Source: Acanthamoeba lenticulata (lineage: Eukaryota > Discosea > Longamoebia > Acanthamoebidae). Taken from it: 64,000 nt of DNA. Under the pieces are notes generated by a model that was not told where the DNA came from, did no database searches, and was given only the letters and a program-made list of their open reading frames with translations. The position numbers were made by a program, and so were the translations under genes. The stretch lies in the NCBI GenBank assembly GCA_002179805.1, contig NAVB01000129.1, forward strand, positions 21,480-85,479. Direction: 5' to 3'. The stretch's first letter is position 1. Each line of letters begins with the position of its first letter. This document shows positions 6,898-64,000 of this stretch, piece after piece.

Positions 6898-7217
6898 CTT
6901 GTTCCCAATCGAGAGAAATGCTGAAGAAAAGCTGACAAGCAGTAGAAGAAAAGGAGAATTGCGACTGTTGTTCCGCGGAAACTTCCGGTAGTGAAGTGCT
7001 TCGGAATGTGCGAAATGCGAGTTAATAACGGCAATACTCACACCGAGGTTCCCTTCAAGTGCGGGCTCTTTGTTCCTTCCCTGGGTGTATGGAATGGGAG
7101 CGAATTAATTGATCAATTGCCTCGGATTGATCAGTTAAGTTGTAGTTGCAACTTGAGGAGAAGAAGGGCGCTTTCTTTTCTCCAGCTTCGCTCCCCCCCC
7201 GTTCGATCCCTTTGGAA
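6898..7217. promoter_or_regulatory. Divergent promoter region between Kelch-BTB and VPS9 genes
   Basis: This 320 bp spacer lies between two start codons pointing away from each other and must hold both promoters. At 7104-7136 there are two TTGATCA palindromes about 15 bp apart within AT-rich flanks, a candidate paired factor site. No TATA box is obvious. Confidence 0.35.
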
Positions 7218-10200
7218 ATGGAGGCAGAGGATGCTCTAAAAGACCTGCTGCTCGAGATTGCTCATCAAGAGACGAATATGTCTGCTTCCCCCACCAAACA
7301 ACGCACCTCATGGATTGGGCGAGCAAGAACTAGCAGTCGTCCGGTGAGCGCACGATCGGAGAAGGAACAACAAGACGACGCCGAAGATGCTGAAGACAAC
7401 GTCGCCTGTGAAGGCGATGCAGACATCAAAGACGAGGACGGAATTGAAGATGACTCAGAATCTTTCATCCACTCGGGTTTCGGATCGCGTAAGGTCACGA
7501 TGGAGGGTGGCGTGCGGCTCTCTACCGCCTTCCAGCGAGATTGGTGGCGTTCTCTCCCCGATTTGGCCTACGTCGTCACCAAGGTCAATCAATACGGCAA
7601 GCGCCAGACCCGCACCCTCCGCCTCACCGCGTACGTTCTTCTTCTAAACAAACTACAAAAACATAAAAGAAAAAAAGAAAAGAAAGCAACCGCTACTCGC
7701 GAGATCTGAAGAGAACGACCCGGTTCATGAAGATGCTCATGTGGGCGGGTCGTTCAACAGGGAGGGCATCGAGAACGTTCGCAGGAGCGGCAAGGTGTCG
7801 TCACTTTACCCCTACGAGGCCGTACTGCGTGTCTACATGAAGAACGTAAAGACCTTCATCATCGACTACGAGAACGCCAAGCATTCCTACCAGTATCGCT
7901 CGACCGTACGACTCCTCTTCTCTTCTTCAAAACACTCTGTTATTCACCTGCCCATTCTGTCGTGTTTTGCAGGTGGCGATGCACATCGTGCAGGAGATCA
8001 CGTCACGGCTGGCACTGCGCAAGAAGGAGGAGCGACTCCTGACGCCCGACATCGCCACCCGCCTTCAGGAGAAGCTCGTGCGCCTCTGCTCTCCTCATGT
8101 CCATTGCCATTCCCTCCAATCCTCTTCCCGTGCTGACCTGGCGGTTGTTTCCCGCAACCATCATGATGCGGGTGATGACGACGATGGCCGGCACACAGCA
8201 GCAGACAGGGTTGCTTGACAGCTCGCGCGAGTCGAGGCGGCGCTTGCCCACATTCACAGAGAGCGAGGAGGACCGCCGGTCGCGGCAGGCCAAGAAGCTC
8301 CACAACATCTTTGGCAGCACCGAGCAGCAGCGGCTCGAGAACGCCATCGACTAGTACACTTTCCCTCCCCAGTCATGACCATCATGACCGTCGCTACGAA
8401 CAAGCTCATGCGTGCGCGCGGACAGCATCATTCTGGACGACCACACGCCCGAAGGTCGGACCCTGAAGCATTTCTGCAGCAACTTTGCTGTGCTCGAGAA
8501 GAACCCCGCCACCCTCGTCATGAACGTACGACGCCTTCCATTTCAGAAATTTATTCAATTATTTAATCCATTTCTAATTTTTATATTAAATCATCTATAA
8601 TTTCACCTGCAGGTGCGTCAATTCATGGACGACATGCGGGCGTACATCCTGGAGCGACGCACCACCGAATTGACCAAGCTCACCGGGAAGACCTCTGTCG
8701 TGCGTCATCGCGACTCGACGCCCTCCATTTCTGTGTTCTTTATTCATTTTTTACCATTTGTTCTTAATTTAATTTTTATAACTACACAGGAACCGATGGA
8801 AGAGCTGTCCCTGTCGACGGTGGTCGAGAAATCGCTGGAGCGCGCCCTCGTGTCGCGTTTCCGTGACCGCATCGTGGCCTGCCTCAAGAAGCCCACCAAG
8901 TTTCGTTTGGCTCCTCCCTTCTTCCCTCTTGCTTTTCTCTCCCATCACCCTTTCGCTCACGCACGCACGCACGCACGCGCGCGCACCGCACACACGCGCA
9001 TGACGGCGCAGGGAGGAGGAGATGCACCTCAAGCGCCAGCTCGCGGCCGCCTCGACCAAGCCGCAGTCCTTCTTTGGCGTCGCCGTACGAAGTCGACAGC
9101 TGCCCTACACGCGTGCGCATATCCGGCTGAGCTCACATGAACGCGTGTGTGTGTGTGGTGCCGACACAGGCCGAGTTCGAGTCGTCGAGCGGGTGGGCGC
9201 ACGCCGTGGCCGAGATGCAGGCGTTGGACGACTGGGACCTACCGAGCAAGCTCCTCGGCGCCATCCTCGCCGCGGCCAAGTCCATCTACGCCACCGTACA
9301 GCTCCAACTCACACGCGCACTCGCCTGTGTGTCATGCGTGCGTGCTGTTGGCTGACGCACTTATGTTGGGGGGATGACAGCTCAACTATGAGAAGAATCG
9401 GGGCAAGCGGGGCGAGCAGCGCACGCCGATCTTCATCTCGACCGACGACTTCTTCCCCGTACGGCAATGTCCACAAAGCGCACGCGCGTCTGTGAAGCTT
9501 TTCTTACGGTGTACACGCGCGCACGCAGATCTACCTGTACGTGGTGGCGCAGGCCAACCTGAAGAACCCGCTCCTGGTGTCCGAGTACCTGTGGGGCCTC
9601 TGCGACCCCGAGCAGCTCAACGGCGAGGTCCGACCCCTTCTTCCCATCGTCTTCATCTTCTTGTCTTCTCATACGCGCGCACGTGTCGTGTCGTACGATG
9701 CGCATGTGCAGGGCGGGTACTACCTGACCGTGCTGTGCTCGACGCTCGAGTACTTGAAGGGCCTCGACATGGAGACCGACGAGGGCGAGCGGGAGCGTGC
9801 GCAGCGCGAGGAGGAGGCCCTCCGGTGCCTCGACGTCTGCCCGACGACGACGTCAACATCAACAACGCCGACGGCGACGACGCCTGCAGCATCGACAACG
9901 CCTACGGCTCCCCTCGCTCCGTCGCCTCAACGTACGCCTTCCTTACAGCTCGTAAAAAGCAAAAAAAAAATACTTTTCATAATTTTATATATTCTAAATA
10001 CTAATAAATTAATAAAAAACGAAATACAGAACACGCGGAGATGATCAACTCGTCGACATCGGTGGACTCGTATTTCCGATCAGCGAGCAAGAAGCCGCCA
10101 GCGGCGGCAGCGGCCGTGGCCGCGGCAGCCGCCTTGGCCGACGAGAAGCGGCAGCGCACGATCTCGGCCCCGGACAAGGGCGCCTCCGTCGCCGTCGCGC

Positions 10201-61689: not shown

Positions 61690-62091
61690 TAGGCGATGGG
61701 TGGCCTCGTACGAACTTGATCGGGCACTCCTGTCCGCTTGTGCACACCGTAAACAAACTGCGAAGCATGGCTGCCCGTGGGACAAGACCACCTGTGCGGG
61801 CGGCCAGGGAAGGCCACATGGGCGTGGTCCAGTGGCCCGTGGGACGAAGGAACGTGTGCCGAGGCAGCCTGGGGAGACCAACTGCACATTCTCCAGTGGC
61901 TGCGCGCCCATGGCTGCCCGTGGGGCAAGGAGACCTGCGCCTCAGCCAAACTCAACGATGACCCCGCGCTTCTTGAGTGGGCTCGTACCAACGGCTTCCC
62001 CTGGAAGGAGGCGGCCGAGTACCTGTGGACATGGGATAAGGACGAGTGGGGTTTCTTCAGACGTCCAGGAGTACAACGTCGTCCTCTCTGA
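61690..62091 (+). pseudogene. Decayed GCPW-type ankyrin-like gene
   Basis: Repeat units are plain but spread over three frames: KHGCPWDKTTCAG in one, RAAREGHMGVVQW in the next, then PWDEGTCAEAAWGDQLHIL and LRAHGCPWGKETCASAK through NGFPWKEAAEYLW in the third. Two frame changes within about 70 bp, plus loss of the residues between VVQW and PWDE, show the gene is broken. The 3' end after the last repeat stays open to a stop at 62091. It is related to the gene at 3.2-4.0 kb and the fragment near 58.5 kb. Confidence 0.65.
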
Positions 62092-62235
62092 ACGCGAGTC
62101 AAGCCTTGAATTTAATTTTTCTTTTCATGGCAGAGGCACATCCCGTACACCAGCCCGCAACACATGTGGTCATGCAGCTGGAAGAGGCAAGCCATCCATA
62201 ACATCTGTTGGCTACATACGCTGAGCACGTCAACG

Positions 62236-64000
62236 TTTTTCTGCTGTTCATACTCCAAATCATTGTGGGTGTGTGGCAGGATCAAATGGGAAGTGGTGCT
62301 TTTTTGGTGACCAAGGCATGCTATTTGATTATTTTTTATTTTATTTTTTATGCTTTTAAGACTGGTGACCACTCAGTCCTGAAGTAGAGGGCAATCATGA
62401 GGCTTAAATACCAAAGTGTAGTAGGTACCATATTTGAAGTCACTTCAACTTTTTTGTTGGTTTCATCATCTCAAGTAGCCAACAAAGTTAAAAAGAAGAT
62501 ACCAGCTTGTATCATGCAACAAATGGTTGCTTACATGACCATAATATTTATAGATTTTAAGCATGAAAAAAGATTTTTTTCAAAAAAATGAACTAAGAAC
62601 CATAAGAAAATATGCAAAAAAAACTATGGAAAATGATGTTTTCCAAAATCCACCATGCAGCAAATGTTGACAATATGTTTTTTGTACATTTCAGGAATAT
62701 AGGTGAAAAAAAAGTCAATGTTTTTTTTTGAACATTATGTTTTTTGCCAACAACCATTTTGAATGGAAAAGTTATATGACATCAAATTTGTGATGACAAT
62801 CAAGCACAAAAGTCAAGAAGACTTCATGAAGTCAAAAAGGCCAATTATAAGCTAGTTGCAGCACAAACATGTATTGATAATGGCTTTGAGTATGTGGTGG
62901 GAGTTGTTGATGCCTTACAACATTTTTGGAGTGCAGCAAGGAAAGGAAACCATGAAAAAGCTTATTGGAAACAAGCCATTAAAACATAATATGACCTTTA
63001 CACCATTATATACAAAGTTTTATAAGCCAAAAAAGGAATTGTATAAGCCTACATCTATTGTCATTTTTTTCTGGACATTTTGTTTAAAACAATACCATCA
63101 TAGTGGCAAGCCATAATTTATAGTTCATTTTTTTTGATCCATGTAACTAACAAAAAAAACATAAAATGATTTGTATGAATGTAAAAAACTAAAAAACTTT
63201 AGTTCAAGAATAATATATAAAGTGGCAAAAAACAATGGTGATGGGATTGAGCCCAAGTATAATTTACCATTTATGTGAATTGATAAATATACAAACCAGC
63301 CAGGCAACTCTTGTTTAAAAAACTACATTAACCAATGCTAATATGGCAAGTTATGTTAGTTTTGATATTATATTTTGCAATTATGAAAATTTTCATGATT
63401 GTGATATTATATTTTGCAAAGTAAATTTAGGCATATTATTTGGATTAGCAATAGTTGTTATATTCAATAAGCTTTGTAAGCTGTTTGTGCTGAAATAACA
63501 AATTTTTGATCAATATTTTTCCCTTTTTCATTTGTATCTGCATGAATTGCAGCAATAAATCCAATGGTTATTTTGTTTACACAACACCAATGCAAAGCAG
63601 GTAAATTAACAAATAACATATCCTATAACCAAAGACAAACATTTATAAAACAAAATAAAATGGTTTCCCCATTTAGTAATTTTTCCAATAACTCTTATGA
63701 GCCTGCATCAGCTATAATATGAGGTTCAAATATATCATTCCATCTTGCCTGGAAGTTGTTTTATTTTCTTTATATTCAATATGTTGACTAATAGCCAAAT
63801 TATGAACAACTTAAACCAAAATCTACTATATATATCATCAACAATCATTTTTGTAATCAAATATATCTAATTTTTTGTAACAAAAAAATATGTTAAAATT
63901 AGTTATTATAATAAAAAATTATATATTTGTACCTTGGTTGTTGCAATGTCAGACTTTAATTCAACTGATAAAACTTCATTTTATTAGACTTCAGTAAAAA
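62236..64000. other. CpG-free, AT-rich tract of unknown origin
   Basis: From just after the CpG at 62234-62235 to the end of the window, 1,765 bp, I find no CG dinucleotide on reading every line, while GC, TG and CA are common. GC content is roughly 30% against well over 55% in the adjoining genes. No exon chain with the local codon habits is present. The longest open readings (for example 62856-63116, 86 residues) have no recognisable family. The tract could be a heavily methylated and deaminated repeat, a subtelomeric or pericentromeric block, or foreign DNA. Confidence 0.75.
63364..63419. repeat. 17-bp direct repeat around a 14-bp palindrome
   Basis: GATATTATATTTTGCAA occurs at 63364-63380 and again at 63403-63419. 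Between the copies lies the perfect palindrome ATGAAAATTTTCAT (63383-63396). Confidence 0.7.

Follow-up and report, generated by a model that had tools for sequence, protein, structure and literature searches.

We have shown that the last 1,765 bp of the window (the entire 64,000-bp stretch that was analyzed) form a CpG-free tract that is a real, nonrandom feature. The right third of this tract appears, from its sequence, to be a piggyBac-like cut-and-paste transposon copy that has died, and the loss of CpG seems to have preceded this death. The identifiable part of the tract, being a dead DNA transposon, is of an ordinary kind; what is unusual is that C632, a relative that looks intact, is by its coding sequence already almost CpG free. 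The explanation that fits best, and probably the correct one, is methylation-driven CpG decay in a transposon lineage that was still functional.

The CpG-free tract and its left part

The initial annotation had described a right end without a single CG dinucleotide but with GpC present, set beside CpG-rich DNA, and each of these observations was confirmed; TpG and CpA were found to be in excess. The tract (positions 62,236 to 64,000, unstranded) contains no CpG, the last one in the window starting at 62,234, whereas after shuffling (2,000 replicates) the same bases contained 35.7 CpG on average and never fewer than 21; elsewhere in the window, no CpG-free run exceeds 156 bp. Its G+C content is 28.5%, compared to 59.6% in the adjoining host DNA. 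The observed-to-expected (O/E) ratios in the tract were 0 for CpG, 1.56 for GpC, 1.46 for TpG, 1.55 for CpA, and 0.72 for TpA, and those in the remainder of the window were 1.09 for CpG, 1.10 for TpG, and 1.06 for CpA. The abrupt start that had been proposed stands only in part: the CpG edge is fairly sharp, but CpG begins to thin at approximately 62,100, with 5 CpG over the three 50-bp bins from 62,100 to 62,249, and the G+C change point, at 62,281 to 62,328, lies approximately 50 to 90 bp inside the CpG edge. The window corresponds to C115:21,480-85,479 and C115 is 85,479 bases long; the tract is therefore cut off at 64,000, where the contig ends.

AT-richness alone was rejected as the cause of the absence of CpG, since AT-rich host windows keep their CpG: 20 windows of 150 bp with a GC fraction below 0.40, drawn from 156.7 kb in 16 hand-chosen stretches outside the elements, contained 101 CpG versus 84.3 expected (O/E, 1.20).

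The left 1,124 of the 1,765 bp, which are not placed in the transposon, would be older CpG-free repeat-like DNA. Positions 62,236 to 63,360, used as a query, matched nowhere else in the genome, even when E values of ≤1 were admitted, and in the CpG-free, AT-rich DNA from 62,236 to 63,056 (unstranded), two open reading frames (ORFs) tried against Pfam gave no match. Positions 63,057 to 63,085 (plus strand) are identical at 28 of 29 positions to C1266:10,444-10,472 and may represent an end (a terminal inverted repeat) in a second repeat family, which is likewise poor in CpG; whole-region alignment scores for this neighborhood were within or barely above shuffled scores, and the 29-bp match is therefore only suggestive. 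Members of this second family are about 500 bp long, have inverted ends, and occur on 15 contigs, and all six copies examined had a CpG O/E of 0 to 0.50. Just to the left of the tract, at 61,740 to 62,090, lie broken HGCPWG-type repeats in a changing frame, which we take to be ankyrin-like; two ORFs tried from this region had no Pfam match.

A piggyBac-like transposon family

On the minus strand, positions 63,360 to 64,000 are predicted to hold a decayed piggyBac-like transposon, with the 5' part of its gene toward the contig end. These 641 bp match family copies (C357, C632, C1200, C1266, C410, C834, C1124, and C1026) piecewise up to the contig end, with 67% DNA identity to C357 over 63,360 to 63,741. 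Two putative transposase remnants, both on the minus strand, correspond to exon 5 of C632: positions 63,479 to 63,748 match residues 40 to 134, around the invariant VADAAFGS aspartate, with 44 to 47% identity and two stops, and positions 63,408 to 63,464 match residues 141 to 159, the start of a SAP-like region, with 58% identity and no stop. A probable remnant of the first-exon region, at 63,910 to 63,999 on the same strand, has 72% DNA identity to C632:1,762-1,851, which comprises part of exon 1 and intron 1. Because of the two stops, the window copy is considered dead. No transposase match was found when six window ORFs were compared with Pfam, and neither the outer end of the family nor TTACGTAA was found at the tract when the window was searched.

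A genome search with the tract itself identified three other places, including C357:17,982-18,384; further searches with the C357 block and its protein brought the family to C115 and at least 11 other contigs. The C357 block is an AT-rich, CpG-poor segment of approximately 1.7 to 1.8 kb that lies between stretches of CpG-rich host DNA on a 50-kb contig; its fragments gave no transposase match in Pfam. When C632 was spliced by eye, with four GT-AG introns, it yielded 520 residues without a stop, and it presumably makes an active protein. C410 belongs to a second subfamily, with 59% protein identity to C632. Twenty metagenome proteins are related at 30 to 54%; in a tree of exon 5, eight copies from the genome (approximately 50 to 100% identity) form a cluster (node support, 0.876) that excludes 19 of the 20 metagenome relatives included, which suggests long residence. 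Positions 1 to 24 of C632 and the left flank of C357 have 24 bp in common, and their right flanks differ.

Likeness to piggyBac lies in three features: a match above the cutoff to the Pfam domain DDE_Tnp_1_7 (PF13843), the fold of a relative, and the form of a two-ended DNA element. The Pfam match of C632 scored 24.5 bits against a cutoff of 22.4, its best stretch being limited to residues 59 to 123, and the Pfam search of the genome itself listed C1346 and C1551, but not C632, for this domain. The modeled protein was P0001, a metagenome relative 44% identical to C632, rather than C632 itself; its AlphaFold model (mean pLDDT, 86) was matched by Foldseek to piggyBac (6x67; E value, 1.2e-13; TM score, 0.44 to 0.48; 14% identity), followed by piggyBat (9c0f) and then Tn5. 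A PDB sequence search with the family alignment gave no piggyBac match, the best being to a SAP-type stretch in 1jjr. One aspartate, that of VADAAFGS, is invariant across the 21 alignment rows; other aspartates may correspond to the rest of the known catalytic triad.

The target of piggyBac is TTAA. The TTAA target duplication expected of such an element was not found; instead, AATT is present at both ends of C357 and C1200, to the left of C632 and C1130, and to the right of C410 and C929, the right flank of C632 being without it. For this reason, we refer to the family as piggyBac-like and not as a piggyBac element. It also differs from piggyBac in its four introns and in the SAP-like segment inside the transposase, which in C632 scored below the Pfam cutoff, and there is no C-terminal cysteine-rich domain, with no cysteine after FLDDPAP, i.e., in the last 79 residues of C632. 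The outermost 13 bp of the putative terminal inverted repeats agree at 7 of 13 positions by eye, and a perfect 14-bp inverted pair lies further in on C357.

C1346 and C1551 represent another family of piggyBac type, in which CpG is normal, the reading frames are split, and a long A/P-rich repeat region is present. This C1346 family, with 57 CpG (O/E, 0.85), served as a further control. The two match each other over most of their length, in segments of 2,531 bp (92%) and 803 bp (98%).

Timing of the CpG loss

The coding sequence of C632 has 8 CpG (O/E, 0.21, a further difference from piggyBac), 6 of which lie in CGN arginine codons. None of its 106 NCN codons ends in G, 12 of its 18 arginines are encoded by AGA or AGG, and the O/E ratios across codon junctions are 0.23 for C|G, 1.24 for T|G, and 1.43 for C|A. 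The exon-5 piece of C410 is similar, with 5 CpG, 4 of them in CGN codons, and 1 NCG codon among 61 NCN codons. Over 256 codons compared between C632 and C410, third positions differ in 121 and second positions in 53; the gene therefore seems to have evolved under selection. Since CpG is absent chiefly from sites that are neutral for the protein, it was apparently lost while that selection was in force. The initial annotation had regarded the tract as an old, silenced element: an element is indeed the source of the right third, but the loss is unlikely to have occurred only after a silent copy had settled, because the apparently intact C632 is already depleted at synonymous sites. The initial annotation had proposed to look elsewhere in the genome for copies with intact CpG; none of the copies examined was of that kind.

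The footprint of deamination that had also been claimed is supported by the excess of TpG and CpA and by transitions that are specific to CpG when young copies in related repeats are compared. Between C632 and C1200, 3 of 30 CpG bases differ, compared to 11 of 1,832 other bases (P = 0.0012), and between C929 and C1567, of the second repeat family, the figures are 2 of 10 and 10 of 498 (P = 0.021). All five CpG changes in these two youngest pairs are transitions; pooled, they amount to 5 of 40 versus 21 of 2,330 (ratio, 13.9; P = 5e-5), the pooling having been chosen after the pairs had been seen. The other five pairs of the transposon family had ratios of 1.4 to 2.3 (P = 0.09 to 0.54); among 15 pairs of the second family, 4 had P values of <0.05 and one had a ratio below 1. 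The inverted paralogs on C1266 showed no CpG-specific excess: 17 of 54 CpG were kept versus 26 of 63 GpC, and 17 CpG and 19 GpC were changed by transition. Beside the element copy on the same contig, C1266:4,501-6,600 has long open frames, a near-host GC fraction of 0.43 to 0.55, and a CpG O/E of 0.07 to 0.57 over approximately 2 kb, i.e., CpG loss without AT-richness.

Explanations for the loss of CpG

Under methylation-driven decay, a transposon lineage long resident in an Acanthamoeba-like genome would have been targeted by CpG methylation, and nearly all of its CpG would have become TpG or CpA over that residence. Copies selected for a working transposase would have confined the loss largely to protein-neutral sites, and dead copies, such as that in the window, would have lost the last CpG too. 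The elements would then be, or have been, methylated. That the host is an amoeba, as the initial annotation had it, is borne out by a profilin approximately 90% identical to Acanthamoeba profilins in the PDB. In the genome, all four matches to the DNMT domain exceeded the Pfam cutoff, as did two of three matches to the SRA domain; the best DNMT match spans eight stops when read without introns, which may reflect either introns or decay. In the published Acanthamoeba castellanii methylome, 5-methylcytosine is reported at CpG only (1.3% overall), with young LINE and LTR copies the most strongly marked; DNA transposons are described there as having no general enrichment, with some inserts highly methylated (PMC12344493). 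Our tract resembles CpG-depleted methylated repeats in its CpG loss, its TpG and CpA gain, and the CpG transitions in young pairs; it differs in that a copy with an unbroken gene is already depleted, that CGN codons are spared, and that methylation is deduced from sequence. It can also be likened to the methylated giant-virus insertions described in Acanthamoeba (PMC12210455, PMC12344493), in being nonconserved DNA in a CpG-methylating amoeba; unlike them, no viral gene was found in the tract, for which the transposase alone was searched, and its identifiable part is a transposon.

Methylation-driven decay does not account for the whole composition. Conversion of every CpG in the host-like DNA (6,022 in 62,235 bp) would lower GC from 60% to approximately 50% only, not to 28%; the low GC therefore calls in addition for a history that was foreign or AT biased in some other way. 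It is possible, if doubtful, that the composition is foreign altogether, retained since the transposon was acquired horizontally from an organism or virus rich in AT and poor in CpG. Such an origin would suit a family of 28 to 31% GC in a 60% GC genome, its 20 metagenome relatives, and the distant similarity by fold of IS4-type transposases of giant viruses, the best viral match to the P0001 fold being that of Barrevirus (E value, 2e-7). It is harder to reconcile with the long residence suggested by the exon-5 tree and with CpG transitions that continue in young pairs, and no relative was found in GTDB contigs. IMG/VR yielded no relative with a single sequence as the query and one weak match (35% over 60 residues) with the alignment; together with the fold matches, and with the transposase alone searched, this lends a viral origin weak support only.

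Selection against CpG, in which CpG-free copies escape methylation silencing and leave more offspring, is improbable. The near absence of CpG from synonymous sites of the most intact copy, C632, would be expected under such selection, which the reported lack of a class-wide methylation enrichment on DNA transposons in A. castellanii (PMC12344493) would also suit; however, of the 8 residual CpG, 6 lie within CGN arginine codons even though a change from CGA or CGG to AGA or AGG is silent, the TpG and CpA replacements are the plain outcome of deamination, and the CpG-normal C1346/C1551 family has copies matching at 92 to 98%. It is rather unlikely that the lineage has become almost unmethylatable, having shed its spare CpG, kept its protein, and escaped silencing, and is still active in a methylating amoeba. 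There is next to no likelihood that repeat-induced point mutation, or another process directed at CpA or toward AT, was responsible. The elements are repeats and are AT-rich, which would suit that process, but its signature is a high TpA/ApT ratio and low CpA; here TpA/ApT is 0.77, (CpA+TpG)/(ApC+GpT) is 1.64, and CpA is in excess (O/E, 1.55). An assembly chimera or a contaminant at the contig end, which the initial annotation had entertained, is highly improbable for the tract. The tract touches the contig end, as do 3 of the 11 family copies among those listed; against this, short-read contigs usually break at repeats. No sign of a chimera was seen, and as a general cause it was rejected: at 17.7 kb (C357) and 7.7 kb (C1200) from contig ends, the related tracts are flanked to the left and right by CpG-rich, host-like DNA.

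If methylation-driven decay is correct, then in this protist, for which description of the methylome has only begun, CpG content alone would mark mobile elements long targeted by methylation, and that pressure would be recorded at codon sites within an intact transposase; methylation surveys could miss such elements because little CpG is left to methylate. If the lineage does escape silencing, CpG-free elements would be the outcome to be expected wherever mobile DNA and CpG methylation contend. In the open literature, none of the papers listed stood out as dealing with piggyBac in Acanthamoeba, and none on CpG-poor transposons evading methylation was on point by title; others may exist. To the left of the window, C115 itself has three segments (L011:5,501-6,000, 7,001-7,500, and 9,001-9,500) with a CpG O/E of 0.44 to 0.49 at a GC fraction of 0.56 to 0.70.
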